Assembly (NCBI GenBank): GCA_014649555.1 | Contig: BMTG01000006.1 | Coordinates: 248,001-312,000, forward strand | Source: Streptomyces globisporus | GTDB lineage: Bacteria; Actinomycetota; Actinomycetes; Streptomycetales; Streptomycetaceae | Length of the DNA: 64,000 nucleotides | Reading direction: 5' to 3' | Shown here: positions 1 to 16,609 of the stretch, one piece after another | Layout: each line of letters opens with the position of its first letter | How positions within the stretch are numbered: position 1 is the first letter of the stretch | Translations under genes and position numbers: made by a program | Notes under the pieces: model-generated | Database searches by the model: none | What the model was told of the DNA's origin: nothing | Seen by the model: only the letters and a program-made list of their open reading frames with translations

Positions 1-662
1 AGCTCTGCACCAGCCCCCAGAACATCCTGATCCCGCGGGCCGGCATCCGAACCGACCTGGGGCGCAAGGGACATCTCGACGTGGTCGCCGACCTCGCCGC
101 CGCGGTGACCCGGCTGCTCACCGACGACGCGTTCGCCTGCGACCTGCTCGGGGCGCTCTGCGGGCCGGCGGAGGCCGCGTCCGCGGAACTGGCCGCCTCC
201 GGCGCCCTCGGCCCGGTCGTCCTGGCCGGCCGCACCGTGCACCACCCCCGCCACCCCCGTGCCACCGTCCGCACCCCGACCCTCGTCGCGCTGGACGCGG
301 CACGACCGCAGGACCGGGCCGCACTGGCACACGCCCGGCCCGGCCCCGTCTTCTTCACCGTGGCGGTCGACTCGGCCGACGACGGCATCGCCCTGCTGCA
401 CACCACCGCCACCACCGCCGGATCGCTCTCGGCCGGAGCCTGGACGGCGTCCGAGCAGGTGGAGCACGCGGTGACCCGAGCCTGCGCGGACGCCGGAGTG
501 ATGCTCTCCCTCGGCATGACCGGCGACTGGTACCTGACCCAGAGCGCCGTCTACTCCGATCTGCACGGCACCGGAGCCAACCCGGCGTCCGACCACGCCT
601 TCTGCGACGGCGCGTTCGTGGCACGCAGATTCCGCACGGTCGAGGTCCGCCGCCGTGTATGA
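1..662 (+). CDS. PaaN-like aldehyde dehydrogenase, C-terminal part (cut by window edge)
   Basis: The open frame enters from the left edge with no start, so only the last 220 or so residues are present. Right at the edge is LCTSPQN, which fits the catalytic-cysteine segment of the PaaN branch of the aldehyde dehydrogenase superfamily (CTxPQN). Known members oxidise ring-opened phenylacetate-type semialdehydes, and relatives occur in actinobacterial natural-product clusters. The remainder is the usual C-terminal alpha/beta part, ending SDHAFCDGAFVARR. The stop lies 61 bases before the best start of the LuxR-type gene, so both may be read together. Whether this gene serves the neighbouring NRPS operon, which is on the other strand, is unknown. 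Confidence 0.7.
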   Translation, partial: LCTSPQNILIPRAGIRTDLGRKGHLDVVADLAAAVTRLLTDDAFACDLLGALCGPAEAASAELAASGALGPVVLAGRTVHHPRHPRATVRTPTLVALDAARPQDRAALAHARPGPVFFTVAVDSADDGIALLHTTATTAGSLSAGAWTASEQVEHAVTRACADAGVMLSLGMTGDWYLTQSAVYSDLHGTGANPASDHAFCDGAFVARRFRTVEVRRRV

Positions 663-723
663 CCGGACCGCACACGCGCAGCCGCGACGGGAACCAGCCG
701 ACGATCCGAGAAAGAGGACCCAC

Positions 724-2019
724 GTGCCACGTGCCCCGTTCGACCTGCCGTTCAGGGGCCGGGACGACGAACTGTCCCGCGTCCGCCGTGTGCTCGACCA
801 CGCGGCACGCGGCGGCAACGCTCTCCTGGTGGTCGAAGGACCACCGGGGACCGGCAAGTCCCGCCTGCTGCAGGCCTGCGCCCAGGAAGCGGTCCGGCGC
901 GGCTTCCGCGTCCCCGACGAGACCTGCGTGCGCCGCCAACTGCCCTCCCTGGGACGGTGCAAGGTGCCGGGCGTCGGACGCACCGGCCGGACAGGCCGCC
1001 CGGGGCTGCGCCGCATGCCCGTCCTCGTTCTGATCGACGAGGCGGACCACCTGGGCGCCGACGCCGTGGACGCCCTGCTCGCGCGTGGCGCCGCGCCGCA
1101 CGGAGTGCCCACCGTGTGGGCCCTCGCCCACCGGTCCGGGCGCACCTGCGAGAGCCTGGCCGCCGTGCTCTCCACCCGCTGCGGATACGTGGAGCGGCTC
1201 ACGCTCGGCGCGCTCGCCCCCGGCGTCATCACCGCCCTGGCCACCGGGGCCCTCGGAGCGCCCCCGTCGCCGTCGCTGCGACAGCTGATCGAGAAGGCGG
1301 GCGGCCACCCCCGGATCACCGCCGAACTGCTGCTCGGACTCCAGGAGGAGGGCGCGGTCGAGACCGGCTCGGGCCTGGCCCACCCCACGTCCACCCGGCT
1401 GCCGGAACGGCTCCACCGCCGGATCGAGGAGACCATGGCCTGCTACTCGCGGGCCTGCTGCCAGCTCCTCAGCGTCGCCGCCGTGCTGGGCCGGGAACTG
1501 GACTACGAGATCCTCGCGCCGATGCTCCGCACCGCCCCCTCCGCGCTGATCCCGCTCGCCGAGGAGGCCTGTGCGATGGGCGCGGTGACCGGCGACGGCG
1601 GACGGACGGTGTTCCGCAACGAGCTGATGCGGGAGATCCTCGCCGAGGCCGTCCCGGCCGCGCTCCAGCGGGTGCTGCGCCGGGAGGCGGAGGCGCTGCG
1701 CACGGCACGGGCCGCGGGACTCCCCGCGCCCGGTCCCGCCGGGACCACGGCCCCGGCACCGGCCGAACCACCGGAGGCGACGGCGTGGGACCTGCTGAAC
1801 GACCGGCAGGCCGCCGTGGTCCGGCTGGTCAAGGCGGGCCTGACCAACCAGCAGATCGCCCGCCGGCTCGATGTCTCGCCGCACACCGTCAACTACCACC
1901 TGCGCAGGCTCTTCCGGAGTTTCGGCGTGCGTTCACGGATCGATCTGCTCAGCGCGGTCGAGCAGCGCGTCCTGCCCGGCCGTGCTGTCCCGGCCGGTAC
2001 CCGGTACGTCCGGTCGTGA
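724..2019 (+). CDS. Short ATPase-LuxR family transcriptional regulator (probable pathway regulator)
   Basis: A 431-residue protein with an N-terminal AAA/STAND-type ATPase and a C-terminal LuxR DNA-binding domain. Walker A GPPGTGKS is at about residues 39-46 and a Walker B-like LVLIDEAD near 101-108. The helix-turn-helix (LTNQQIARRLDVSPHTVNYHLRRLF) occupies about 370-395. I chose GTG 724 because AAAGAGGA lies at 711-718; an in-frame GTG at 655 overlaps the upstream gene but lacks a good ribosome site. Typical LAL regulators have about 900 residues, so this one lacks the long TPR-like middle. It ends 70 bases from the convergent NRPS operon and is the obvious candidate to control it; that is inference. 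Confidence 0.85.
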   Translation: MPRAPFDLPFRGRDDELSRVRRVLDHAARGGNALLVVEGPPGTGKSRLLQACAQEAVRRGFRVPDETCVRRQLPSLGRCKVPGVGRTGRTGRPGLRRMPVLVLIDEADHLGADAVDALLARGAAPHGVPTVWALAHRSGRTCESLAAVLSTRCGYVERLTLGALAPGVITALATGALGAPPSPSLRQLIEKAGGHPRITAELLLGLQEEGAVETGSGLAHPTSTRLPERLHRRIEETMACYSRACCQLLSVAAVLGRELDYEILAPMLRTAPSALIPLAEEACAMGAVTGDGGRTVFRNELMREILAEAVPAALQRVLRREAEALRTARAAGLPAPGPAGTTAPAPAEPPEATAWDLLNDRQAAVVRLVKAGLTNQQIARRLDVSPHTVNYHLRRLFRSFGVRSRIDLLSAVEQRVLPGRAVPAGTRYVRS

Positions 2020-2088: not shown

Positions 2089-2970
2089 TCAGGCGGTGAG
2101 CGGCCGCAGATAGCGGTCCAGCACCGGATCCGGCAGGACCCGGGCCAGGGCCCCGGCCCGGCGGGCATCGTCCCCGACCCGGTAGCGCGACCGGGGCCGC
2201 GCCGCCGTGAGGGCTCTCACCACCGCCGCGGCGAAGTCCTCGGGCCGGGTCCCGCTTCCCGCGGCCCCCGCCTCGTTCTGCCGCAGGAACCGCAGGAACG
2301 GCGCCCGGTACAGCTCCGCGACCTCACTCCCCACACCGGCCAGAGCCGCCTCGCCGCCCGTCGACACCTTGCTCCAGATAGGCGTCATGATCGCGCCCGG
2401 CTGCACCACGCTCACCCCGATGCCCTGGGACCGCAGCTCCCGGCGCAGCACATCGGTCAGAGCCTCCTTGGCGAACTGCGCGGCCGCATAGGCGCCCATG
2501 AAGGGCAGCGCGATGCTGCCCAGGCCCGAGGTGACATTGACGATCCGGCCCCGGCTGCGCCGCAGATCCGGCAGGAACGCCTGGGTGACCGCGAGCTGGC
2601 CCACCACATTGGTGTCGAGCTGCTGCCGCAGCCGCTCCGGGTCCACGCACTCCAGTGGGCCCGAGACACAGATCCCGGCGTTGTTGACCAGCCCCCACAG
2701 CGGCCGGCCGTCGCCGAGCGAGGCGATCTCCTCGGCCGCCGAGGCGATCGATACCCGGTCCGTGACGTCGACACGTACCGCGGTGATCCGGCCGAGCCCC
2801 GACCGCCCGGCCAGCGCCTCGCCGTCCGCCTCTTTCCGTACGCCGGCGAAGACGCTGAACCCGGCCCGCTCCAGCCGCAGCGCACATGCCTCGCCCAGCC
2901 CCGACGAGGCGCCCGTGACCAGCACGGACCGGCCGTTCGGCGTGACGGGGAGCCTTCTAACGGCCGGCAT
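2089..2970 (-). CDS. Short-chain dehydrogenase/reductase with Gln in place of the catalytic Lys
   Basis: A 293-residue classical SDR. The cofactor motif TGASSGLG is at 19-26, NNAG at 96-99, the active-site Asn is N121 and the Ser is S148. Tyr161 begins what should be YxxxK, but the sequence reads YAAAQ, so residue 165 is Gln; the codon is CAG on the coding strand. Loss of this lysine normally cripples hydride-transfer catalysis, so the protein may be slow, use a nearby lysine (K168), or act as a non-redox or binding protein. It is the last gene of the NRPS operon and its start overlaps the monooxygenase stop by 14 bases, which implies translational coupling and a role in tailoring the same product. 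Confidence 0.9.
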   Translation of the reverse strand: MPAVRRLPVTPNGRSVLVTGASSGLGEACALRLERAGFSVFAGVRKEADGEALAGRSGLGRITAVRVDVTDRVSIASAAEEIASLGDGRPLWGLVNNAGICVSGPLECVDPERLRQQLDTNVVGQLAVTQAFLPDLRRSRGRIVNVTSGLGSIALPFMGAYAAAQFAKEALTDVLRRELRSQGIGVSVVQPGAIMTPIWSKVSTGGEAALAGVGSEVAELYRAPFLRFLRQNEAGAAGSGTRPEDFAAAVVRALTAARPRSRYRVGDDARRAGALARVLPDPVLDRYLRPLTA

Positions 2971-4162
2971 GGGCGTCCTCCGGTGCGGTCCGGTTCCCGG
3001 GGAAGGTGAGCGCGCCTTCCAGGATGGCCGTGAGCCGCCCGGTGGGCAGGAACCTGAAGTAGGCGTCCCTGACCGGCCGCCGGACCGGGTTCACCGACTG
3101 CTCGAAGGTACTGATGGAGCGTGAGGCGGCCACCATGCCCCGGGTGCGCTCGCGGCGTTCGTCCTCGTACCGGCGCAGCGCCACCGTGCTGTCGGAGCTC
3201 CCCGCGAGATGACGGGCGAGGACGACGGCGTCCTCGATCGCCATGCAGGAGCCCTGCCCCAGGCTGGTCAGCATCGGGTGGGCCGCGTCGCCCAGCAGGG
3301 TCACCGGACCCCGGCCCCACTGCTCCAGGAAGGCCCGGTCACGCGAGGGGACGGCCAGGATCGACTCCTGCGGGGTCTGCGCGATGGCCTGCTGGACCTC
3401 CTCGGCCCACCCGGCGAAGGCGCGCCGCACATCCTCCTTGCCGCCCTGCCAGTCGTGCGACTCCTCGGTGGGCATGTTCTTCGTACCCCACCAGTACAGC
3501 GTGCCGTCGCCCATGTCGACCAGGCCGAACCGCTGTCCGCTGCCCCAGAAGTGCGTCACCGAGCCCGGTGTGAAGTTCGGGTGATCGAACGGGACGAGCG
3601 CCAGCCAGCAGATGTAGCCGCTGTCCTGGGAGGGTTCGTCGCCCGGGCCGGTCAGCTGGCGCCGTACGGCCGAGTTGAAGCCGTCCGCGCCGATGAGTAC
3701 GTCGCCGTCGGCCCGGGAGCCGTCGGTGAAGTGCACGCTCACCCCGCCCCCGGGAGGGTCCGGGTCGAAGCGCTCCGCCTGCGCCCCCAGCACGACGGGA
3801 ATACCCTCGGCCGCCTCCAGCAGGGCCGCCTGGAGCGCGGAACGGGTGATCAGGACGCTCGGCACCCCGAGCCGCCCGATGATCTCGGGGAAGGGGAACT
3901 CCCGGATCAGCCGTCCCCTCGACGTCTTCACCCGGTACGACTCCAGGACCTGGCCGCGCTTCTCCAGACCGAGGTCGATCCCGGCGGAGTCCAGGGCGGC
4001 CAGCGCGTTGCTCATCACCGAGAGGCCCGAGCCTGCCGCGCCGAGCTCGGCCGCCCGCTCGTACACCTCGACGTCCAGTCCGGCCCGGCGCAGGGCCACG
4101 GCGGCCGTCAGACCGCCGATGCCCGCACCGATCACGATCGCCTTGCGGCGCGCTTGCGTCAT
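2957..4162 (-). CDS. FAD-dependent monooxygenase, candidate pyrrolizidine-forming oxygenase
   Basis: A 401-residue class A flavoprotein hydroxylase of the UbiH/PHBH type. The FAD-binding GAGIGG is at 12-17, and the second FAD motif GDAAHPM is near residue 292. A conserved GADGFNS (DG motif) lies between them. The start sits one base after the NRPS stop (TGACATG), so the two are co-translated. In known Ser-Pro or Thr-Pro bimodular NRPS systems (PxaA/PxaB, LgnD/LgnC, BraB/BraC) the partner flavin monooxygenase performs a Baeyer-Villiger-type oxidation of the released bicycle and so contracts the ring. The same job is inferred here from context and family, not shown by the sequence alone. Confidence 0.88.
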   Translation of the reverse strand: MTQARRKAIVIGAGIGGLTAAVALRRAGLDVEVYERAAELGAAGSGLSVMSNALAALDSAGIDLGLEKRGQVLESYRVKTSRGRLIREFPFPEIIGRLGVPSVLITRSALQAALLEAAEGIPVVLGAQAERFDPDPPGGGVSVHFTDGSRADGDVLIGADGFNSAVRRQLTGPGDEPSQDSGYICWLALVPFDHPNFTPGSVTHFWGSGQRFGLVDMGDGTLYWWGTKNMPTEESHDWQGGKEDVRRAFAGWAEEVQQAIAQTPQESILAVPSRDRAFLEQWGRGPVTLLGDAAHPMLTSLGQGSCMAIEDAVVLARHLAGSSDSTVALRRYEDERRERTRGMVAASRSISTFEQSVNPVRRPVRDAYFRFLPTGRLTAILEGALTFPGNRTAPEDAHAGR

Positions 4163-4163
4163 G

Positions 4164-7100
4164 TCACTCTCCGATCAGTTCGGTGACGACCTGGGCGAGG
4201 TGGGCCACATGGGGCTCCTCCATGATCGTCAGGTGGTCGCCGGGCACGTCGATGACGGTCAGTTCACCGCGGGTCCGCTCCCGCCAGCCGTTCGCCGGGT
4301 CCCGGTGCAGGGACTCGATGGCCGTGTGCATCGAGTCCAGGACCTCGGGCAGCGGCTCGGACGCGTGCACCAGCGTCATGTCCTGGTCGACCGGTGCGGG
4401 CCGGTAGGCGAAGGCGGCCCGCCAGTTGGCCTCGTACACATGGAAGAGCCGCCGCACCACCGCCCCCGTACTGCCCGCCGGCAGCACACCCTCCTCGACG
4501 GCGAGCCGGGCGATGAAGCCGAACTTCTCCTCCAGCGTCCCGAGCCCGGACGGAATGGCCTCCAGCGGGGAGTCGCCGCCGCGCTGGAGCCACAGCAGCT
4601 CCCAGAAGAACCAGCCCAGCAGGGCGTCGTCGTCGGTGGTCAGCCGCCGTCCGGGGTTGAGTGCGGTGGTGTCCAGCAGCACGAGACGCGCCACCTCCTG
4701 TCCCGCGGAACGCAGTTGACGGGCCATCTCGAAGGCGACGAACCCGCCGAAGGACCAGCCGCCGATGACGTACGGGCCCTCGGGCTGCACCCGGCGGACG
4801 GCCTCGACGTATCCGGCCGCGATCTCCTCCACGCTGCGCAGCGGCTCGGTCCCCGCGTCGACCCCGGCCGCCTGGAGCGCGTACAGCGGCTGGTCGTCGC
4901 GCAGGTACTTGGCGAACCGGACGTAGCACAGGACGTTGCCGCCCATCGGATGCACGAAGAACGCGGGCCGCCGGTCGCCGCCGGACCGGATCGGCACCAG
5001 CGGGTCGAACTCCGCGCTCACCCCGCCCGACCGCAGCCGATCGGCGAGCTGGGCCACCGTGGGCGCCGAGATGAACTCCGAGAGGGGGACGGTCACTCCG
5101 TACCGCTGCTCGATGAGGACCACCAGCCGCATCGCCGTCAGCGAGGTGCCGCCGAGGTCGAAGATGTTGTCGTGGACCCCGGGCACCGGCAACTGGAGCA
5201 GTTCGCCGAGGAGTTCGGCCAGCGCGTGCTCGTACGCGTCGCGCGGCGGTGTGTTGTCGCCCGCCCGGCCCGCGGTCAGGGTGATGCGGCGCAGGGAGGC
5301 GTCGTCGCGCTTGCCGCTCGGGGTGAGCGGAAGCTCGGGCAGCCACTCGTAGTGCGAGGGCAGCATGTAGTCCGGCAGCACGGTGCGCAGTTGCTTGCCG
5401 AGCTGACCCAGATCGGTGTGCTCGCGCTCGCCCACCAGGAACGCGGCCAGGAAGGAGTCGTTGCCCTCGCGCCGCCGTGCGACCACCGCCACCTCGGCGA
5501 GCCCGGGGTGATCGGCGCCGAACCGCGCCACGGCGAGCTCCACCTCGGCCGGCTCCACCCGGAAGCCGCGCACCTTCACCTGGGCGTCGGCCCGCCCGAG
5601 GCAGACCACCGAACCGTCGGGCAGCACCACCCCGAGGTCGCCGGTGCGGTAGAGGCGGCGGCCCGGCGTGCCGTCGGGATGCGGTACGAAGCGCTCGGCG
5701 GTCAGCTCCGGCTGGTGGAGGTATCCGTCGGCCAGGCAGACGCCACCGAGGTGGATCTCGCCCTTGACGCCCGCGGGGACCGGCCGCAGCTCCGCGTCCA
5801 GGACCAGCACCTGCGATCCGGGCACCGCCTTCCCGATCGGCGGCAGCGGCGGCCACGACGCGGGATCACCCGTCATCGTGTGACGCGTCACCACATGCGA
5901 TTCGGTGGGGCCGTACTGGTTCTCCAGCAGCACCCCCGGCAGCGCCGCGCACAGCCGCCGGATCTCCGGCGTGACGCGCAACTGCTCCCCGGAGGAGATC
6001 AGCGTCGTCAGGGCGCGGGGGACGAGTCCGAGAGCATCGGCCGTCTCCGCGAGCTGCTGGAGGGCGACGTAGGGCAGAAACAGCCGCTCCACCCGCTCCC
6101 GGTCCAGCAGCCGCAGCAGCGCGGGCAGATCGCGCCGCTCGGCGCCCGAGAGCAGCAGAAGGGTGCCGCCACCGCACAGTGTGGAGAAGATCTCCTGGAA
6201 GGAGACGTCGAAGCTCAGCGGCGCGTACTGCACGGTCGTCGCACCGACCGCCCCGCTCGGAACGTCGTTCTGCCAGGCGATCAGCTGGGCCAGCGAGCGG
6301 TGCGGCATCGCCACGCCCTTGGGCCGGCCGGTGGAGCCGGAGGTGAAGAGGACGTAGGCGGTGCTCGTCGGTGAGATGGCGGGCAGCGGTACGCCGTCGG
6401 ACGCCCCGGCGCCGCCCGGCGTGGCCAGGGCGGCGTCCGCGAGCAGGACGGGCACCCCCTCGGGGAGCAGCTCGCTCTGCGTCCGCTGTGCGACCACCCG
6501 GAGGGGACGGGCCTGCTCCAGCATCGCCGCGAGCCGTTCCTGCGGGTAGTCGGTGTCCAGCGGCAGCGCGGCGGCCCCCGCCTTCAGCACACCCAGGATC
6601 ACGGCGACGGTCTCGGGGGAGCGGTCCATGGCGATGCCGACGCTGTCACCGGCGCTCGCCCCGAGCGCGAGCAGCCGGTGCGCCACCCGGTCGGACGCCC
6701 GGCCGAGGTCGGCGTACGTCCAGCGATCGTCGCCGAAGACCAGCGCGACCGCGTCCGGAGCCTTCTCCACCTGTTCCCGTACGGCGGTGACCACATCGGC
6801 CGGTGCGGCGGGGGCCCCGGCCGGCACGGGCGCCAGGTCGGGGGCCCCGGCCCGCAGCGCGGTGTCCGGGCGCTCGTGGGGGTGGTGGGCGAGCGTGTCC
6901 AGGACCGTCAGGAACCGGTCGGCGTACAGCGTGGCCTGGCCCGGGGTGAAGACGCTGCCCCGGTAGTCCATCCGCAGCCCGAGATGTCCGTCCGCCGGGT
7001 CGGCCACCGCGTTGACCAGCAGGCTGAAGTTGGTCTCCTCCCAGGCGTGGAAGGCGTCCATCCGCACACCGGGGAGGGCGAGAACGGGGGAGAGCTGCCG

Positions 7101-10100
7101 GAAGTGGATGTAGTTGAACGCGGTGTCCAGCACCGTGACGCCCAGCTCCTCCTGGACGGCGCTGAGAGGGTGGCGCCGGTGCGGGTGGCTCCGCTGCTCC
7201 TGGCGGAACGTTTCGCGGGCCACGTCGAGCAGGCTCTCCCGGCCGGTGTCCAGGCGCACCGGCAGCGTGTTGAGGAACAGCCCCACGATGCGCTCCGCGC
7301 CCTCCGCGTCCGGTCGGCCATGGGTGACGAGGCCGGTCGTGACATCGGTGGTGCCGGTGAACAGACCGAGGGTCAGGCAGTGGGCGGCGAACAGCACCGA
7401 CTTGACGGGCAGGGCGTGCTCCCGCGCGAACTCCTCCACGGCCGAAGCCAGTTCACCCGGCAGGTCGATCCGTCGTGTGATGAGTCCCTCGCTGCCGGGG
7501 GCCTCGTGCGGGCGGAAGCCGTCGAACTGGGGGAGTGCGGAGCCCTCCAGATACCGCGACCAGTAGGCCCGGCTCTCCGCGGACTCCAACGACGCGCGTT
7601 CGGCCGCCACATGACCGGCCGCCGAGGGCAGTTCGACGGCCGGGACCGCACCGATCCCCGCCCCGGTCAGGTGCAGATGGTCCTGGAGCAGCTCACTGAC
7701 GGCGTTCGCCACGCTGCCGCCGTCCAGCAGCGCGTGGTGGAAGTTGAGGACCAGCTCCACGCTGTCGTCCGCCAGCACATAGGCCCGGAAGTGGTGGAGC
7801 GGGGCGTCGGTGAAGACGTACGGGTGGTAGCGCCGTTCGGCGACGTACGCCGCCATCTCCTCGCGCGCCGCCTGCTGCGGCAGCCCTCGCAGGTCGCGGA
7901 CGGAGAGCGCGCCCTCCACCGTGTCGTGCACCAGCTGCAACGGCTCGGAGAAGGTCCCCAGGTCGAAGGAGGAGCGCAGCGCGGGGTGGCGGGCGACCAG
8001 CCGGTCGAAGGCCGAGCGGAACGCTTCCTCCTGCCACGGAAGGGTCAGCGAGTACTGGAAGACGTCGCGGTAGACGGCGGAGGTCTCCTCGGTGCGGCTG
8101 TGGTAGATCAGGCCGAGCTGGAGGCGGGAGAGCGGCTGCGCGTCCTCGATGCCGGGCGTTCCCTCCAGCCGGGCCACATCGACCCGGGAGACCAGCGCGA
8201 ACGGCTCGTACCCGCCCGGCGGCGGCGCGGCCGGACCCTCGGTGACCACCGCGGCCAGCCCGGCGACCGTCGGGTTGCGGACGAGGTCGGAGAGCGAGAA
8301 GTGCAGCCCCTGCTTCTCCGCCGCGGCGCGCAGCCGCAGCATCTGGATCGAATCACCGCCCAGCGCGTAGTAGTTGTCGTGGACGCCGACCTCGGCCACG
8401 TCCAGGAGCTCGGCCCACACCAGCGCCAGCCGCCGCTCGGTGTCATTGCGCGGAGCGGCCGCGGAGCGTGGTGAGGCGCCCGTCACCGTCGGCTCCGGCA
8501 GTGCGCGCCGATCGGCCTTGCCGTTCGGGGTGAGCGGCACCTCGTCGATCCGTACGAAGTGCGCGGGGACCATGTAACCGGGCAGCGTCGCGGCCAGGGC
8601 GGCCCGCAACGAGGCGTCGTCCAGCGGGAGATCGGCGACGTAGTAGCCGACCAGATAGGTGGAGCGGTCCGCCGAGTCACGGTCCACGACGATCGCGTCC
8701 CGGACTCCGTCCACGGTGGCCAGCGCGCTCTGCACCTCGCCGAGTTCCACCCGGTTGCCGCGGATCTTGACCTGTCCGTCGATCCGGCCCAGGTACTCCA
8801 GCGTTCCGTCGGACAGCAGCCGCGCCAGGTCACCCGTCCGGTAGAGCCGCCCTTCGGCGGCGAAGGGATCGGCGACGAACTTCTCGGCCGTCAGCTCCTC
8901 GCGGCCGAGATAGCCGCGGGCCACCTGCACCCCTCCGACGCACAGCTCGCCCGCCAGCCCCGCCGGCTGCGGGGCCCCGGCCGGGTCGAGGACGTGGAGC
9001 CGGGTGTTGTCGACGGGACGGCCGATCGGCACCCGGTGCTGCGGAGCCCCGGCCGGATCGCCGGGCAGGTCCTGGTAGGAGACGTCCACCGTGGCTTCGG
9101 TCGGCCCGTAGAGATTGACCAGCAGCGGACCGGAGCCGGCGGCGTACGCGCCGAAGACCCGGTGGAACTGGTCCACCCGGGCCGGAGGCAGCGCCTCGCC
9201 GCTGCAGAAGACCCGGCGCAGCGAAGCCGCGTCGGCGCGCAGGGCCGGACTCTCCTCCAGCAGATCGAGGAAGGGGCCGAGCATGGACGGCACGAAGTGC
9301 AGGGTGGTGACCCGGCGCGAGCGCACGGTCCGCAGGATGTCCCGCGGGTCCTTCTCGCCGTCGACCGGCAGCAGCGCCACGGACGCGCCCTCGGCCGCCC
9401 ACCAGAACAGCTCCCACACCGACACGTCGAAGGAGATCGGGGTCTTCTGGAGCAGGACGTCGTCCGCGCCGATCGGATAGCGCCGCTGCATCCAGGCCAG
9501 CCGGTTGACCACCGAGCGGTGCTCGACCATGACCCCCTTGGGCCGGCCGGTCGATCCGGACGTGTAGATGACGTACGCGAGGTGGTGCGGGCCCGCCGCC
9601 GGCTCCACCGGACCCGACGGCCCGCGCAGCAGCTCCCGCACGGTCAGCACCACAACGGACGGGTCCAGACCCGACGGGGGCGTCTCGCCCGACGTCAGGA
9701 CGACGCTCGCCCGGCTGTCCTCCAGCAGGAAGGAGATCCGCTCCTGCGGGTATCCGGGGTCGACGGGCACATACGCACCGCCCGCTTTCAGTACGCCGAG
9801 GAGCGCGGCCGGCAGGTCCGGCCCGCGCCGCATCAGCACGGCCACGCGGTCGTCGGGGCCCACGCCCCGGGCCCGTAAGGCGCGGGCGATCTGATTGGCC
9901 CGCGCGTCCAGGGTCGCGAAGTCGATCCGCTCCCCGGTGGCCTCGTCCACGACCGCCGTACGGCCGGGGTGCACCGCCGCCCGCTCCTCGAACAGCTCGT
10001 GCAGGGTGCGGTCCGTACGGTGGGCGACGTCGGGCCCGCGGGCAGCCCGTGCGAGCTCGCCCCGTTCCTCCTCGCCGATCAGGGGAAGCGTGAGGGCGGG

Positions 10101-11384
10101 CCGCTCAGGGGCCTCGACCGCGCCCTCCAGCAGCCGGCGGATCCCCTCGGCCACACCGGCGACGGGGAAGTCCTCGTCGAAGACGTCCAGGGCGTGGTCG
10201 AGGGCGATCCGCAGCGTGCCGTCGCCCTCGTCGGCGTGGACCGTCACCGCCAACGCGTCCTGCCGGTGCACAGGGGCCATGATCGACGCCACCCGTGTGA
10301 TTCCCGCCGGTACCGCCACGGCCGGGAAACGCACGTACGACAGGGTGACGTCGAAGAGCGCGCGGACACGCCCGGGCAGCTCCCCGACCGTGCGCAGCAC
10401 GTCGCCCAGCGCGAGACGCTCATGGCCCCGCAGCTCGGCCGTTCTCGTCCTGACCTGCTCGGCGAGGTCCGGCAGGGAGGCGTCCGGGCGGAGGTCCACC
10501 CGCAGCGGCAGGCTGTTCGCGAACTGCCCGACGACCGAGCGCGTCCGTTCGTCCTGCCGGTTGAGGAAGGGCACACCGAGCACGATCTGCTCACTGCGGT
10601 GCACCCGCGCGAAGTAGGTGGCGAACGCGGCGGCGACGACACCGAAGGGCGAGCCGCCGCCCTCCCGTATTCGGTCCACCAGCGCGGCGTCGACGGAGAA
10701 GCCGTAGCGAGCCCGTCCCGGGCCGTCAGGGGCCTCGGCGCCCGCCGAGCGCGGGAAGAGCACGGGGACCGTGTCCCGGTGGGCGTCACGGTGGAAGGCG
10801 AGGTCACGTTCGCGGTCGGCCGAAGCCCGGTAGGCGGCATCGGCCTCCACCGCCACACTGTGGGAGAGCCGGGGCCGTGAGTCCTCCGCCGCGTCGCCCC
10901 GGGCGTACGCCTCCCACATCTGGCCGCTCACCGTGTTCAGGGCCCAGCCGTCGACGACGAGATGATGGGCCTTCAGCGCCAGGTGGACCGTCGCGGAGCT
11001 CTCCCTGACGAGCAGCGCGGAGACGAGTGGCGAGTCCTGGACGGTGAACGGCTCGGCCAGGAATTCCTCCAGCCGGGCGGCGACGGCCGCGGCGGGGTCC
11101 TCGCGGCCCGAGAGATCCTCGTCCGGCTCCCAGACGCCGGGCCATTCACGGGGATCACCGGACCACTGGAACGGAACGCCGTCCCGCTCGCCGAACCGGA
11201 TCCGGAACGCCTCATGACCGAGGAGTGTCCGGGTCAGCGCGTCGTGCAGCGCGCCCGTGTCCACGGGACCCGTCAGCCGCTCGTGCTGGACCACGTTGAA
11301 CTGAGGGTCGCCCGGCGCCCTGGATTCGGCCGCCCAGATGTCTTTCTGATAGGAGGTCAGAGAAGTCTCGCGATACGTACTCAT
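4164..11384 (-). CDS. Bimodular NRPS C-A-T-C-A-T-TE predicted to join Ser and Pro
   Basis: A 2406-residue nonribosomal peptide synthetase. Order and rough positions: C1 1-430 (HHLVVDGW near 139), A1 455-960, T1 975-1045 (GGDS near 1008), C2 1065-1500 (HHALLDGG near 1215), A2 1515-2030, T2 2040-2110 (GGTS near 2075), thioesterase 2120-2406 (GWSFGG near 2205, His in PGDHLTI). The ten specificity residues read DVWHFSLVDK for A1, identical to the serine code, and DVQFISQVVK for A2, close to proline codes of the DVQxIAHVV type. A condensation domain at the very N-terminus, with no loading module, suggests N-acylation of Ser by a fatty acyl-CoA. Product inferred: an N-acyl-Ser-Pro-derived bicycle. 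GGGGAG precedes the ATG. Confidence 0.95.
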   Translation of the reverse strand: MSTYRETSLTSYQKDIWAAESRAPGDPQFNVVQHERLTGPVDTGALHDALTRTLLGHEAFRIRFGERDGVPFQWSGDPREWPGVWEPDEDLSGREDPAAAVAARLEEFLAEPFTVQDSPLVSALLVRESSATVHLALKAHHLVVDGWALNTVSGQMWEAYARGDAAEDSRPRLSHSVAVEADAAYRASADRERDLAFHRDAHRDTVPVLFPRSAGAEAPDGPGRARYGFSVDAALVDRIREGGGSPFGVVAAAFATYFARVHRSEQIVLGVPFLNRQDERTRSVVGQFANSLPLRVDLRPDASLPDLAEQVRTRTAELRGHERLALGDVLRTVGELPGRVRALFDVTLSYVRFPAVAVPAGITRVASIMAPVHRQDALAVTVHADEGDGTLRIALDHALDVFDEDFPVAGVAEGIRRLLEGAVEAPERPALTLPLIGEEERGELARAARGPDVAHRTDRTLHELFEERAAVHPGRTAVVDEATGERIDFATLDARANQIARALRARGVGPDDRVAVLMRRGPDLPAALLGVLKAGGAYVPVDPGYPQERISFLLEDSRASVVLTSGETPPSGLDPSVVVLTVRELLRGPSGPVEPAAGPHHLAYVIYTSGSTGRPKGVMVEHRSVVNRLAWMQRRYPIGADDVLLQKTPISFDVSVWELFWWAAEGASVALLPVDGEKDPRDILRTVRSRRVTTLHFVPSMLGPFLDLLEESPALRADAASLRRVFCSGEALPPARVDQFHRVFGAYAAGSGPLLVNLYGPTEATVDVSYQDLPGDPAGAPQHRVPIGRPVDNTRLHVLDPAGAPQPAGLAGELCVGGVQVARGYLGREELTAEKFVADPFAAEGRLYRTGDLARLLSDGTLEYLGRIDGQVKIRGNRVELGEVQSALATVDGVRDAIVVDRDSADRSTYLVGYYVADLPLDDASLRAALAATLPGYMVPAHFVRIDEVPLTPNGKADRRALPEPTVTGASPRSAAAPRNDTERRLALVWAELLDVAEVGVHDNYYALGGDSIQMLRLRAAAEKQGLHFSLSDLVRNPTVAGLAAVVTEGPAAPPPGGYEPFALVSRVDVARLEGTPGIEDAQPLSRLQLGLIYHSRTEETSAVYRDVFQYSLTLPWQEEAFRSAFDRLVARHPALRSSFDLGTFSEPLQLVHDTVEGALSVRDLRGLPQQAAREEMAAYVAERRYHPYVFTDAPLHHFRAYVLADDSVELVLNFHHALLDGGSVANAVSELLQDHLHLTGAGIGAVPAVELPSAAGHVAAERASLESAESRAYWSRYLEGSALPQFDGFRPHEAPGSEGLITRRIDLPGELASAVEEFAREHALPVKSVLFAAHCLTLGLFTGTTDVTTGLVTHGRPDAEGAERIVGLFLNTLPVRLDTGRESLLDVARETFRQEQRSHPHRRHPLSAVQEELGVTVLDTAFNYIHFRQLSPVLALPGVRMDAFHAWEETNFSLLVNAVADPADGHLGLRMDYRGSVFTPGQATLYADRFLTVLDTLAHHPHERPDTALRAGAPDLAPVPAGAPAAPADVVTAVREQVEKAPDAVALVFGDDRWTYADLGRASDRVAHRLLALGASAGDSVGIAMDRSPETVAVILGVLKAGAAALPLDTDYPQERLAAMLEQARPLRVVAQRTQSELLPEGVPVLLADAALATPGGAGASDGVPLPAISPTSTAYVLFTSGSTGRPKGVAMPHRSLAQLIAWQNDVPSGAVGATTVQYAPLSFDVSFQEIFSTLCGGGTLLLLSGAERRDLPALLRLLDRERVERLFLPYVALQQLAETADALGLVPRALTTLISSGEQLRVTPEIRRLCAALPGVLLENQYGPTESHVVTRHTMTGDPASWPPLPPIGKAVPGSQVLVLDAELRPVPAGVKGEIHLGGVCLADGYLHQPELTAERFVPHPDGTPGRRLYRTGDLGVVLPDGSVVCLGRADAQVKVRGFRVEPAEVELAVARFGADHPGLAEVAVVARRREGNDSFLAAFLVGEREHTDLGQLGKQLRTVLPDYMLPSHYEWLPELPLTPSGKRDDASLRRITLTAGRAGDNTPPRDAYEHALAELLGELLQLPVPGVHDNIFDLGGTSLTAMRLVVLIEQRYGVTVPLSEFISAPTVAQLADRLRSGGVSAEFDPLVPIRSGGDRRPAFFVHPMGGNVLCYVRFAKYLRDDQPLYALQAAGVDAGTEPLRSVEEIAAGYVEAVRRVQPEGPYVIGGWSFGGFVAFEMARQLRSAGQEVARLVLLDTTALNPGRRLTTDDDALLGWFFWELLWLQRGGDSPLEAIPSGLGTLEEKFGFIARLAVEEGVLPAGSTGAVVRRLFHVYEANWRAAFAYRPAPVDQDMTLVHASEPLPEVLDSMHTAIESLHRDPANGWRERTRGELTVIDVPGDHLTIMEEPHVAHLAQVVTELIGE

Positions 11385-11471
11385 GGGGTCTCCCCTTTTG
11401 CCGGCAATCCGGCGCCCATCGCTCAGGTTGATTCGTCCGGAACGATAGGCATTCGGTGATCGGCGAAACCA

Positions 11472-11535
11472 CTACTCGAATGGGTAGGGGCCGGGTCACG
11501 ATACGAGCCGGCCGGATCGCTACCCGCTTGAGCAG
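11472..11535. promoter_or_regulatory. Pair of related 16-bp inverted-repeat sites in the NRPS promoter region
   Basis: Site 1 at 11472-11487 reads CTACTCGAATGGGTAG. Site 2 at 11520-11535, read on the minus strand, is CTGCTCAAGCGGGTAG. They agree at 12 of 16 positions and both follow CT(A/G)CTC-N4-GGGTAG, a near-palindrome. Centres are 48 bp apart. Site 1 lies just upstream of a possible -10 for the NRPS, where an activator would sit. Binding by the LuxR-type regulator encoded at 724-2019 is inference. Confidence 0.5.
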
Positions 11536-11690
11536 CGCCGATGGTGGACCCAGGAGGAGAACTGCGACCGCAGCTGTGCATGTGTTCACGCTTGCTTCAT
11601 GTTGCTTCTCGCGCATTTAACGGAGAGACATAATGGTGCGCGGAGCGGTGACTTTCGGTCATGTTCGTCTGGACCTGATGGAATTCGGCC

Positions 11691-11723
11691 ACGGTCCGTC
11701 GTGGGAATCCCACGACGGACCGT
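11691..11723 (-). terminator. Perfect 15-bp hairpin terminator after geosmin synthase
   Basis: Arms 11691-11705 and 11709-11723 are exactly complementary (ACGGTCCGTCGTGGG and its reverse complement) with a 3-base loop. It begins 31 bases past the geosmin synthase stop. There is no U tract, as is common in Streptomyces. It should separate geosmin synthase transcription from the NRPS operon. Confidence 0.8.
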
Positions 11724-11753
11724 ATTCCCCCGGGAGCCCTACGGCCCGGGATG

Positions 11754-14033
<2,280 letters not shown>

Positions 14034-14060
14034 CTACCCTTCGGCCATCCGGGGCACGCA

Positions 14061-14084
14061 CGATGACAATTAGTCACATCATCG
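14061..14084. promoter_or_regulatory. Nested palindrome upstream of geosmin synthase
   Basis: CGATGA at 14061-14066 pairs with TCATCG at 14079-14084. Inside it, TGAC at 14064-14067 pairs with GTCA at 14073-14076. The element is AT-rich compared with its surroundings and lies about 94 bases upstream of the geoA ATG. On the minus strand it reads TGTGACTAATTGTCATCG, loosely Crp-like but with the wrong half-site spacing. The binding protein is unknown. Confidence 0.4.
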
Positions 14085-14103
14085 GCACGTCGGGGGTGTC
14101 GGC

Positions 14104-14799
14104 TCAGTAGGCGGAGTCGACGTTGTCGATCGAGCCGTACCGGTCCGCGGCGTAGTTCGCGGCGGCGGTGATGTTGGCGACCGGGTCGGTGAGCTTCTTC
14201 GGGGTGCCCTTGACGTGGTACGCGTCGAAGGTGGGCTGGATCACCTGGAGGAGACCCTTGGAGGGAATGCCGTTCTGCGCGTTGATGTCCCAGTCGTTGA
14301 TGGCGTTCGGGTTGCCGCTGGACTCGCGCATGATGTTGCGGTGCAGCCCCTCGTAGGAGCCGGGGATGTTCTTCTTGTCCATGATGTCGAGCGACTCGCG
14401 GATCCAGCCGTCGAGGTTGTTCGCGTACTTCTTCGGCGTGACGGCCTTGCGCTCGGTGGAGCGGTTGGCGGCCTGCTTCTCGGAGCGCTCCTTCTCGGCC
14501 GCCTTCTTCGCGGTCGCCTTCTTCGCGGTCGCCTTCTCGGCGATCGCCTTGGCGGCGGCCTTCTTCGCCGCGGCTTCCTTGGCGGCGTTCTCCTTCGCGG
14601 CCTTCTCGGCCGCGTCCTTCGCCGTGGGGACGCCCGCGGCGGCGACCGGCTCCACGGAGACGGACGACCGGGTCGCGGTGGTCTGCGCTTCGCTCGGGCC
14701 GCCGGTGGCGGTTATGGCGGTCACGGAACCGGCCGCGACGAGCACGGCGGTGGCGATCTTGTGCGAGCGGGTGATGCGCAGGGTGGAGATGCGGGGCAT
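14104..14799 (-). CDS. Secreted lytic transglycosylase (SLT fold) with Lys/Ala-rich linker
   Basis: A 231-residue secreted protein. A signal peptide covers about residues 1-38. A Lys/Ala/Glu-rich repetitive stretch (repeats of KAAAK and KATAKK type) fills about 58-115. A C-terminal transglycosylase domain begins at YANNLDGWI, with the catalytic glutamate in IMRESSGNP and the typical GLLQVIQPTF and NYAADRYG motifs. It would cleave peptidoglycan glycan strands outside the cell, where the basic linker may hold it near anionic polymers. Such enzymes in Streptomyces act in spore germination and wall remodelling. It stands alone, between geosmin synthase and the kinase-fold gene. Confidence 0.9.
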   Translation of the reverse strand: MPRISTLRITRSHKIATAVLVAAGSVTAITATGGPSEAQTTATRSSVSVEPVAAAGVPTAKDAAEKAAKENAAKEAAAKKAAAKAIAEKATAKKATAKKAAEKERSEKQAANRSTERKAVTPKKYANNLDGWIRESLDIMDKKNIPGSYEGLHRNIMRESSGNPNAINDWDINAQNGIPSKGLLQVIQPTFDAYHVKGTPKKLTDPVANITAAANYAADRYGSIDNVDSAY

Positions 14800-14908
14800 G
14801 CGTGAGCTCTTCCTATGGGGGACGGGCTTCGCGGCCTTCGCGCCGCGTCGGCGGGTACCGGACCGTCCGGGCCGCGTTCGCCGGTGGGCGATCGACGCGG
14901 ACTCGAAC

Positions 14909-14945
14909 TCGGTGCCTGCCGGGATCCATGGTTAGCGGGCACCGA
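14909..14945 (-). promoter_or_regulatory. Leader stem-loop upstream of the transglycosylase gene
   Basis: TCGGTGCC at 14909-14916 pairs perfectly with GGCACCGA at 14938-14945 around a 21-base loop. It lies 110-146 bases upstream of the ATG, so it could be in the transcript leader. Streptomyces cell-wall hydrolase genes often carry c-di-AMP (ydaO) riboswitches, but the conserved ydaO core was not recognised here. Function unknown. Confidence 0.3.
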
Positions 14946-15144
14946 CATAGGAAGCAATGACCGCCTTTACTACGCTTCATCGTGAGATGCCAATTTATGA
15001 GCCATATGGGCGGTTCGTTACGCCGGACGGGAGGGCTCGCGTCTCCTACCGGAGGTCGTAGGTGATGTGGGTCTCGTGGCGGGCCTCACCCGCGAGGTGC
15101 CCCGGAACGACACAGGGTCAGCGCTCGGTCACCGAACGCAGAAC

Positions 15145-15190
15145 AGCGCGCTGCGGGACCGGTGTGTCGGCACCGGTCCCGCAACGCGCT
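15145..15190 (-). terminator. Hairpin terminator after the phosphotransferase-fold gene
   Basis: TGCGGGACCGGTG at 15152-15164 pairs with CACCGGTCCCGCA at 15171-15183, 13 bp with no mismatch. Flanking GC-rich sequence extends the stem to about 15145-15190 with one mismatch. It lies 85 bases beyond the stop of the leftward gene at 15275. Confidence 0.7.
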
Positions 15191-15274
15191 TCTTCTTCAC
15201 AGTGGTCTGGTCACTGTGGTTTTCGAATGGCGGGCCCCGCCCCGCCCTCTTGTCCGGCTCGGCGTCGTCCCGCC

Positions 15275-16411
15275 TCAGCGGGTGCCGACCGCCGCCCGCA
15301 CCGCCCGCCGCGCCATCGCGCAGTCGTCGTGCAGCCTCCGCAGCAGCAGCCGCTGCTCCTCACCCGAGGAGAGCGCCCCCGGACGGTCCGCTCCCGCACC
15401 CACCGCGGGCGCCTCCCGCATGGTGCGCTGCACCGCCGTCTCGTAATTCCGGATCTCGCGAGTCAGCACCAGCATCAGGTTCACCAGGAACGCGTCCCGC
15501 GCGGCCGGGCCCCTGGCCTGGGCCAGCTGACTGATCTGGCGGCGCGCCACCGGGGCGTCACCCAGCACCGCCCACAGCGTCGCCAGGTCGTACCCCGGGA
15601 GATACCAGCCGGCGTGCTCCCAGTCGACGAGCACCGGTCCGGTCGGCGACAGCAGGATGTTGGAGAGCAGGGCGTCCCCGTGACAGAACTGCCCCATGCC
15701 CTGCCGGCCGCCCGCGTGAGCCAGTCCGTGCAGCAGCTTCTGCAGATCACCGAGGTCACGGTCGGTGAACAGACCGAGCTCGTGGTAGCGGGCGATCCGC
15801 GAGGCGTAGTCCAGCGGCGCCTCGAACAGCCCGGACGGTGGCCGCCAGGCGTTCACCCGGGCGATGGCGCCCAGCGCTGCGCGGATGTCGGCCCGCGGCG
15901 GCGCCTCCGCCGGGTGCCGGGTGAGGGCGGCGACCCGGCCGGGCATCCGCTCGATCACCAGCGTGCAGTTCTCCGGATCCGCCGCGATCAGCCGGGGCAC
16001 CCGAACCGGGGGCCGGTGCCGGACGAACGCGCGGTACGCCGCTATTTCGTGCCGGAACCGCTCGGTCCACGCCGGCGAGTGGTCCAGTAAACACTTCGCC
16101 ACGGCGGTCGCCCGCCCGGTCGTTCCGACGATCAGGACCGAACGGCCGCTGCGGCGGAGCACCTGGACCGGGTTGAACTCGGGGCAGATGCGCTGCACGG
16201 AGGCGATGGCCATCCGCACCTGCGCGCCCTGCGGCCCGGACAGGTCGATCCTTCCGCTGAGCGGTCCGGCGCCCGGTCCCGCGGCCCGTCGGGCCCGGCC
16301 CGGACCCTGCACCGGTGCGCCGGCGTGAGGAGCGAGATAGGGCCCGCCGCCCGCGCCCATCGGGCGGAGCGGACGGGGCGGGGCGGACACGGAGGACGAT
16401 GCTGTGTACAT
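15275..16411 (-). CDS. Phosphotransferase-fold (APH family) protein
   Basis: A 378-residue protein of the aminoglycoside phosphotransferase/choline kinase fold. The catalytic loop HGDALLSN (Brenner motif HxDxxxxN) and the metal-binding VDWEHAG are both present, so it is probably an active small-molecule kinase; the substrate cannot be read from sequence. The ATG at 16411 was chosen because the frame upstream is Arg/Pro-rich and lacks domain similarity, and AAGGGA lies 12 bases before the ATG. It is divergent from the TPR regulator, with about 230 bases between starts. From memory this gene pair recurs in streptomycetes; that was not checked. Drug resistance should not be assumed. Confidence 0.8.
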
Positions 16412-16553
16412 GGGCGAGACAGATCCCTTCGTGCGCCGACAAGGTACGTGCGCCAACCCGGCCGACGGCCGTTCGGCACCCTGGGGAGTACCTAGGGCTG
16501 CCGGGCGGGGTGGCGCACTCCTACCTGACAACGGGTCACGGGTGGCAGACCAT

Positions 16554-16583
16554 CTGGCGGACCCTGGCGAACCCTGGCGAATA
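16554..16583. repeat. Three 10-bp direct repeats phased by one helical turn
   Basis: CTGGCGGACC, CTGGCGAACC and CTGGCGAATA follow each other at 16554, 16564 and 16574. A weaker relative (GTGGCAGACC) starts near 16542. They sit in the divergent promoter region, 27-60 bases before the possible starts of the TPR regulator. The exact 10-bp period puts all copies on one face of the helix, which suits cooperative binding. Confidence 0.5.
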
Positions 16584-16609
16584 GTCACAGCGCATCTGAC
16601 AGGGGGTTA

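Follow-up and report, generated by a model that had tools for sequence, protein, structure and literature searches.

Gene organization of the locus

We analysed a stretch of 64,000 nucleotides of the Streptomyces globisporus genome (GCA_014649555.1, contig BMTG01000006.1, positions 248,001 to 312,000), referred to here as the window, which carries an operon for a bimodular nonribosomal peptide synthetase (NRPS), a flavin monooxygenase (FMO) and a short-chain dehydrogenase/reductase (SDR). The best explanation of the operon as a whole is that it makes an N-acylated pyrrolizidine-type alkaloid or the unstable bicyclic carbamate precursor of such a compound, a reading to which we assign a probability of about 0.8. 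The SDR is bound to this pathway, and the lysine of its catalytic motif is displaced. The NRPS contains condensation (C), adenylation (A), carrier (T) and thioesterase (TE) domains, and the features of the operon, in window coordinates, are as follows.

4164..11384, minus strand: bimodular NRPS, C1-A1-T1-C2-A2-T2-TE, 2406 amino acids; intact open reading frame, Pfam domains and motifs
10065..11384, minus strand: C1, N-terminal condensation domain, probably of the starter type; HHLVVDG at residue 140, PDB matches
8490..10022, minus strand: A1 adenylation domain, code DVWHFSLVDK (Ser), re-derived
8235..8462, minus strand: T1 carrier domain; LGGDS at residue 1008, Pfam
6855..8162, minus strand: C2, probable dehydrating (CmodAA) condensation domain; HHALLDG at residue 1216, RR at the C6-like motif, PDB matches
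5265..6812, minus strand: A2 adenylation domain, code DVQFISQVVK (Pro type of the family), re-derived
5025..5237, minus strand: T2 carrier domain; LGGTS at residue 2077, Pfam
4185..4967, minus strand: type I thioesterase; GWSFG at residue 2209, Pfam
2957..4162, minus strand: LgnC/PxaB-type Baeyer-Villiger FMO, 401 amino acids; H204, Y223, W225, YWWGTKN at residue 223, GDAAH at residue 291
2089..2970, minus strand: cluster-specific SDR, 293 amino acids; N121, S148, Y161, Q165 at the place of the catalytic Lys, K168 at Y+7

The three genes are intact minus-strand open reading frames that form one operon from 11384 to 2089. Pfam recognizes two Condensation, two AMP-binding, two PP-binding and one Thioesterase domain in the NRPS, FAD_binding_3 in the monooxygenase and adh_short in the SDR, and all the NRPS active-site motifs that were looked for are intact. 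A single base separates the NRPS stop codon from the FMO start, and the FMO and SDR genes overlap by 14 bases. The original prediction, made from the same DNA, had described this domain order, gene set and spacing, all of which we recovered on recomputation, but it missed the linked genes for a LuxR-type regulator and a PaaN-like aldehyde dehydrogenase (ALDH).

The Ser-Pro synthetase and its monooxygenase

The assignment of the FMO as an LgnC/PxaB-type Baeyer-Villiger monooxygenase (BVMO) is well supported by its sequence. The signature motifs of LgnC are GxGxxG, YWWxTKN and GDAAH (PMC7820566), and its residues H200, Y219 and W221 are important (PMC11457151). All three motifs are present in the window FMO, together with the His/Tyr/Trp set, which appears as H204, Y223 and W225, each at +4 relative to LgnC, and is invariant in 13 of 13 aligned rows (chosen rows, our own included). 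Among the 29 relatives L009-L037 from the genus, 20 have exactly YWWGTKN, four differ from it by one letter and five have YWW followed by other letters, YWW being kept in all 29; none of the seven monooxygenase paralogues examined in the S. globisporus genome (nine matched) has the motif.

A phylogenetic tree of 60 FMO rows, from which L086, L087 and 12 of the 22 Pseudomonas matches were left out, places the window protein in a clade (support 100/97) that also holds L088 and nine closely related Streptomyces proteins. The cluster FMOs stand apart from the paralogues of the S. globisporus genome with support 89/97, long outgroup branches being flagged, and the FMOs of five Pseudomonas loci lacking the SDR (L229-L233) form a clade of their own (100/100) that does not include the window FMO. 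The protein groups with FMOs of Ser-Pro NRPS clusters and not with unrelated hydroxylases, and the motif, the residues and the tree together bear out the earlier claim that a Ser-Pro NRPS is paired here with a pyrrolizidine-type monooxygenase. The label "UbiH-type" then given to the enzyme is imprecise: among curated profiles HpxO scores highest, at 240 bits and short of its cut-off, and TIGR01988 scores 65 bits.

Both substrate codes read in the original prediction, DVWHFSLVDK for A1 and DVQFISQVVK for A2, were re-derived, the final K being set by convention and not read; they would make A1 specific for Ser and A2 for Pro or a Pro analogue. Of 44 rows, which represent 43 distinct loci, 42 agree in the first nine letters of the A1 code; the exceptions are L063, with Val changed to Ile, and L065, where A1 lies on a separate protein. 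For A2, the pattern DVQ..SQ is found in 35 of the 44 rows. Because the two-gene locus L093 of Xenorhabdus hominickii has DVQYISQVI (with DVWHFSLVD for A1), a proline code of this variety is usual for the family. Among the nine rows that differ, five read DVQHCSHAA, unlike the family Pro code; these come from L058, L059 (the same place as L090), L062 and L089, a Streptomyces group that includes S. californicus, and the substrate may be a modified proline.

In pairwise comparisons with PDB chains, C1 matches Txo2/Txo1 best (96 bits), followed by RzmA (79), ObiF1 (76), EntF (67) and CDA (65), the last four of which we take to be starter or capping domains, and it scores at most 30 bits against surfactin chains. 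As C1 is the first domain of the first module, its donor must come from elsewhere. C2 scores 230 bits against McyA (8jbr) and 178 bits against AmbE (7r9x), the next best match reaching 112 bits, and it carries an RR pair at its C6-like motif; we presume that the McyA domain is the microcystin domain named as an early CmodAA member. The AmbE domain is a characterised dehydrating C domain, the microcystin C domain is among the first CmodAA members, and an RR pair has been described for that group (PMC10880069, PMC11342130). C2 is therefore a probable dehydrating (CmodAA) condensation domain, as judged from these sequence matches.

Distribution of the NRPS-FMO core

The FMO was found in 37 of 392 Streptomyces genomes (E<=1e-70) and in 11 of 396 Actinomycetota genomes (E<=1e-60), our own being included in both counts. 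Flanking sequence was retrieved for each of the 37 matches in the genus other than our own and for 2 of the 10 such matches in the phylum, and an NRPS gene lies within 2 kb of the FMO gene in 36 of these 39 loci (35 of 37 in the genus, one of two in the phylum), which argues that the pairing is not due to chance. The FMOs of L085-L087, which are 38-42% identical, have no NRPS nearby. A search of 398 genomes from the genus of Pseudomonas arcuscaelestis found the FMO in 22 (E<=1e-60), and five of the 10 loci fetched out of these 22 contain the SDR and five do not. In a sample of Gammaproteobacteria only the centre genome matched (1 of 369), and among 15 plasmid records only H1 is close (59.8%). 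It should be noted that L059 and L090 represent the same place, as do L133 and L234; counted in this way, there are 30 distinct SDR loci and 31 distinct SDR genes in 33 rows.

One close relative, L088 from Streptomyces sp. NBRC 110028, has an FMO that is 74% identical and falls inside the clade of the window protein. We rejected an identification of this strain with TP-A0873, the producer of bohemamine, which has the number NBRC 110035.

A pathway-bound SDR with a displaced lysine

The comparison covered 73 genomes, 36 of which are FMO-positive (including G074 and G236, in which the FMO is weak and an NRPS is lacking) and 37 of which are not among the FMO matches. The SDR (E<=1e-50) is present in 23 of the 36 FMO-positive genomes vs none of the 37 FMO-negative ones (Fisher p 4e-10, which can serve only as a guide given that the genomes are related). 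The SDR is thus pathway-bound and neither a new oddity of one strain nor, as had been proposed, an add-on of this operon. In the fetched loci its gene often lies directly 3' of the monooxygenase gene.

The cofactor motif TGxxxGxG, N121 and S148 are kept. The classical catalytic set N-S-YxxxK is not intact: the protein reads Y161-A-A-A-Q165 instead of YxxxK, followed by K168 at Y+7. Gln occupies the place of the Lys in 32 of the 33 orthologue rows and Met in the remaining one, L083 (30 Gln and one Met among the distinct genes), and a Lys at Y+7 is present in all 33. Other SDR matches in the fetched loci have the classical Tyr and Lys in 13 of 14 cases, the other one having neither. The S. globisporus genome gave 45 SDR matches, 30 of which were examined as loci: 28 have YxxxK, one could not be aligned, and the cluster SDR is the sole exception. 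An alignment slip was rejected as the source of YxxxQ, as the spacing between Ser148 and Tyr161 is the classical 13 and three alignments with PDB entries are free of gaps from Tyr to Lys.

Y-x6-K is the spacing of the FabI/FabL enoyl reductases, and FabL has Asn-Ser-Tyr-x6-Lys (PMC9260719). Y161 and K168 fit this spacing, yet the Ser-Tyr spacing is the classical 13 and the overall similarity is to DHRS9 and 17beta-HSD. The likeness to FabI/FabL may therefore be superficial, the Lys of a classical SDR having been displaced. The nearest solved structures are DHRS9, by both sequence and fold, then acetoin reductase and 17beta-HSD1; of five structure models (built with five sequences), the best has a mean pLDDT of 79.7, against 50-60 for the rest, and Foldseek showed a 17beta-HSD-like fold.

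A PaaN-like dehydrogenase or a PapA5-like acyltransferase as partner

On the plus strand, opposite to the NRPS operon, two genes that overlap each other by 8 bases lie beyond the SDR gene:

655..2019, plus strand: AAA/LuxR-type regulator (Pfam), linked to the cluster in close relatives
1..662, plus strand: 3' end of a PaaN-like ALDH of 586 amino acids that begins left of the window (L048:10903-12663); Cys369 kept, Ser335 at the place of the probable Glu base

The regulator (E<=1e-30) occurs in 12 of the 36 FMO-positive vs one of the 37 FMO-negative genomes (Fisher 6e-4, again only a guide for related genomes). A PaaN match is present in 72 of the 73 genomes. All nine nearest relatives carry the regulator and an additional PaaN copy near the cluster (60-85% identical to ours), and a second, more distant copy is found in two FMO-negative genomes, G013 and G033 (42% and 50%). 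The PaaN-luxR pair is found in either orientation relative to the operon among the fetched loci, which argues for a functional link. Outside Streptomyces, the Marinactinospora locus L235 has PaaN (52%) and LuxR (35%) genes upstream, and the Pseudomonas loci L226-L228 have NRPS, FMO, SDR and PaaN genes in a row, the last being 33-34% identical. The L226 locus (2599-16658) is a compact Pseudomonas-genus operon in the order NRPS-FMO-SDR-PaaN-phosphopantetheinyl transferase-major facilitator superfamily transporter-hydrolase.

By overall score the cluster protein is PaaN (698 bits, cut-off 579). In all 14 cluster copies (our own, nine Streptomyces relatives, L235 and L226-L228), Ser, Ala, His or Gln stands in place of the Glu found in the core motif YTEKAGVN, and the catalytic Cys is kept (GQLC, GRLC or AQLC); the 10 core PaaN copies fetched all have the Glu, as does 5uju, a relative of solved structure. 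Glu and Cys are 34 apart, as they are in ALDH2, and we take the base of PaaZ to sit at the same place. In one PDB alignment (4go3) the canonical Glu falls two residues before the YTEKAGVN Glu. The replaced residue is thus, from these alignments, the probable catalytic base of PaaN. The cluster copies from Streptomyces do not come together as a single supported clade in a tree of PaaN proteins.

The SDR keeps one of two partners. Among the 30 distinct SDR loci, which were counted in Streptomyces, Marinactinospora, Pseudomonas and Xenorhabdus over stretches of about 20 kb each, 14 have PaaN and 16 have a PapA5-like acyltransferase, with none having both or neither. In L051 and L055 the PaaN gene is about 12 kb from the FMO gene and about 3 kb from the NRPS gene. 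A PapA5-like gene without the SDR in the same stretch occurs in L070, L073 and L075, where the SDR gene lies elsewhere in the genome (on other contigs or at a distance of about 11 kb), and in L084, which is a real exception. A loss of the catalytic His in the PapA5-like partners was considered and rejected, as xHxxADG, with its second His, is kept in 18 of 20 loci (L090 being left out as identical to L059); the exceptions are L070, a partial match of 274 amino acids, and L084, which has no xHxxADG at that place.

The azabicyclene-like Pseudomonas loci L224 and L225 carry the same YxxxQ SDR together with ClpP, cytochrome P450, SnoaL and FabH (Pfam), a PapA5-like gene and a methyltransferase-like protein that we infer to be AzeJ. 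The SDR is absent from the pxa-like L093, the legonmycin-like L065 and L229-L233. The X. hominickii genome that contains L093 has a second NRPS-FMO locus, L236, in which a PapA5-like gene accompanies two YxxxQ SDR genes in tandem. The SDR may be associated with the carbamate/ClpP-inhibitor side of the family, judging from few pathways labelled by their layout.

Neighbouring genes

A two-domain terpene cyclase gene adjoins the NRPS gene (11754-13967, minus strand); its product scores 1185 bits against the NCBIfam model "family 2 encapsulin nanocompartment cargo protein terpene cyclase" (cut-off 1200). We rejected it as a member of the cluster, as only the closest relative, L049, shares a neighbouring terpene cyclase gene among the fetched stretches. 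Upstream of PaaN, enoyl-CoA hydratase-like and thiolase-like genes (L048 4121-8105; one scored as a lipid-transfer protein/thiolase) may be plain core metabolism.

Discussion

The core of this operon is well supported as a new member of a known family. In homologous pathways, Ser or Thr is acylated and dehydrated by C2, a cyclising release is followed by Baeyer-Villiger ring expansion, and non-enzymatic hydrolysis, decarboxylation and contraction complete the scaffold (PMC8748450, PMC11177316, PMC11457151). Extending this scheme from the homologues to Ser and Pro, we propose that C1 would place an acyl group on T1-bound Ser, that C2 would dehydrate the acyl-Ser to dehydroalanine and join it to the proline on T2, and that the TE would cyclise and release an indolizidinone. 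The monooxygenase would then insert oxygen to give a 1,3-oxazepine-dione, the bicyclic carbamate, which would spontaneously hydrolyse, decarboxylate and contract to a pyrrolizidine. The SDR with its displaced Lys and the PaaN-like ALDH lacking its probable Glu base, whose roles are likewise proposed from homologues, would form a linked tailoring pair, perhaps controlled by the LuxR regulator. The N-acyl pyrrolizidine or related bicycle that had been predicted thus stands well as far as the core pathway is concerned, and only as a proposal for the SDR and PaaN steps.

What the pair does may be guessed at, with odds a little below even: the SDR would carry out an enoyl-type reduction or a non-redox conversion of the reactive BVMO product or the core, and PaaN would form a Cys-bound acyl group and pass it to a thiol or amine and not to water. 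More doubtful is the broader proposal that in a branch of the pyrrolizidine/ClpP-inhibitor family, in Actinomycetota and Gammaproteobacteria, the SDR, its Lys moved by one helical turn, and the base-less ALDH (or the PapA5-like protein) would divert or trap the unstable BVMO carbamate, so that a scaffold not yet described would arise through reactions unknown in either superfamily.

Several points weigh against these views. Predicted from sequence, the product could be a pyrrolizidine, a trapped carbamate or something new. The SDR is absent from 13 of the 36 FMO-positive genomes, and it may still be an active dehydrogenase with Q165 or K168 substituting for the Lys. The 21-kb locus L088 has neither SDR nor PaaN, showing that the core can stand alone, and L078, which has NRPS and FMO, an AzeJ-like gene (44%) and a P450 with no SDR, PaaN or PapA5-like gene, speaks against a strict link between the SDR and the carbamate makers. 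PaaN and luxR, on the opposite strand, may be a separate unit. On the question raised earlier of a starter or a peptide-forming LCL type, C1 leans towards starter by pairwise scores only (RzmA, ObiF1, EntF and CDA at 65 bits or above, surfactin far lower), its two best matches, Txo2 and Txo1, being untyped. Finally, the comparison with LgnC (UniProt A0A0U1XUB1) was made through published motifs and residue numbers and not by direct alignment.

The alternative that survives best, although we regard it as doubtful, is that the SDR and its partner supply an alternative acyl starter: PaaN would make or reduce an acyl-CoA, the PapA5-like protein would move an acyl group from a carrier protein, and the SDR would be a keto- or enoyl-reductase of the chain. 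CoA-acylating ALDHs keep the Cys and lack the Glu, a likeness shared by the cluster PaaN. The occurrence of exactly one partner with the SDR in the fetched stretches also fits this possibility, as do the FabH- and SnoaL-like genes of L224/L225 and the plain short fatty acyl chains of the pyrrolizixenamides, products of a two-gene system (PMC11177316). Against it, no ketosynthase or carrier-protein gene was seen beside the SDR in the window or in L226, where no dedicated search was made, and the SDR gene is often placed directly after that of the monooxygenase.

It is unlikely that the SDR is, along the lines first proposed, an ordinary NADPH ketoreductase turning a ring ketone into a hydroxypyrrolizidine. 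The Rossmann fold, TGxxxGxG, the kept N-S-Y and the closeness of the model to DHRS9 and 17beta-HSD1 would suit such a role, but all 33 orthologue rows (31 distinct genes) have another residue in place of the catalytic Lys, which the 28 other SDRs scored from the S. globisporus genome all keep. As the canonical Lys is absent, a reduced or hydroxylated variant does not follow.

A brabantamide-like lipocyclocarbamate in place of a pyrrolizidine is improbable. The brabantamide system BraABC of Pseudomonas has the same NRPS logic and a homologous NRPS and BVMO (PMC11177316), but the window FMO lies outside the SDR-less Pseudomonas clade L229-L233, which we took without proof to be of the brabantamide type, BraC itself not being in the comparison. 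That only the NRPS and FMO form the functional unit, with SDR, LuxR and PaaN as hitch-hikers, is equally improbable: most pathways of this kind need no more than two enzymes to build the scaffold (PMC11457151) and L088 lacks both SDR and PaaN, but the SDR is confined to FMO-positive genomes, as far as the guide value above allows, and the pattern recurs in two phyla.

Several known systems come close to this operon. Legonmycin biosynthesis by LgnA-D (Streptomyces sp. MA37) shares the LgnC-type motif and key residues, the use of acyl-CoA, a dehydrating C2 and Pro (PMC11457151, PMC8748450), but there A1-T0 resides on a separate protein, LgnB, LgnA is required and the amino acid is Thr, whereas the window has one collinear NRPS using, as predicted, Ser. 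The legonmycin-like L065, laid out as C-T-C-A-T-TE, FMO and a separate A, differs from the window in having no SDR. The pyrrolizixenamide system PxaAB of Xenorhabdus likewise combines a single C-A-T-C-A-T-TE NRPS for Ser and Pro with one BVMO; L093, which from its layout is presumably a pxa locus, has neither SDR nor PaaN, and its FMO is only 48% identical. The bohemamine/legoncarbamate cluster lga, also from Streptomyces, has an NRPS for Ser and Pro or 5-methyl-Pro and an LgnC-like FMO (PMC7820566), but has methyltransferase and acyl-CoA genes in addition, a comparison made by description and not gene by gene.

The azetidomonamide/azabicyclene and clipibicyclene systems, which give ClpP inhibitors, have the same NRPS-BVMO core, and L224/L225 share the YxxxQ SDR; they differ in their ClpP, AzeJ-like, P450, SnoaL, FabH and PapA5-like genes, the place of the last being taken by PaaN in the window. 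A ClpP/AzeJ-type pathway was rejected for the window, as the AzeJ-like (an inferred label) and ClpP (by Pfam) proteins of L225 have no match in the window or L048 at 1e-8.

In the literature searched, we found no description of the NRPS-BVMO-SDR-PaaN layout with its two altered enzymes, and no paper on point for the YxxxQ SDR or the SDR/PaaN pair; work on azabicyclene (2019), pyracrimycin (2022), ClpP inhibitors (2022) and bohemamine (2020), which lay outside that search, may already discuss the SDR. Metaze B, a bicyclic carbamate of this family, inhibits ClpP by covalent modification, and carbamates of this kind are unstable (PMC13386464). Whether related clusters yield pyrrolizidines, carbamates or brabantamides can depend on the side chain in addition to the BVMO (PMC11177316). 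The pathway-bound SDR that lacks its Lys and the paired ALDH that lacks its probable base, conserved in two phyla, are testable candidates for steering this outcome.

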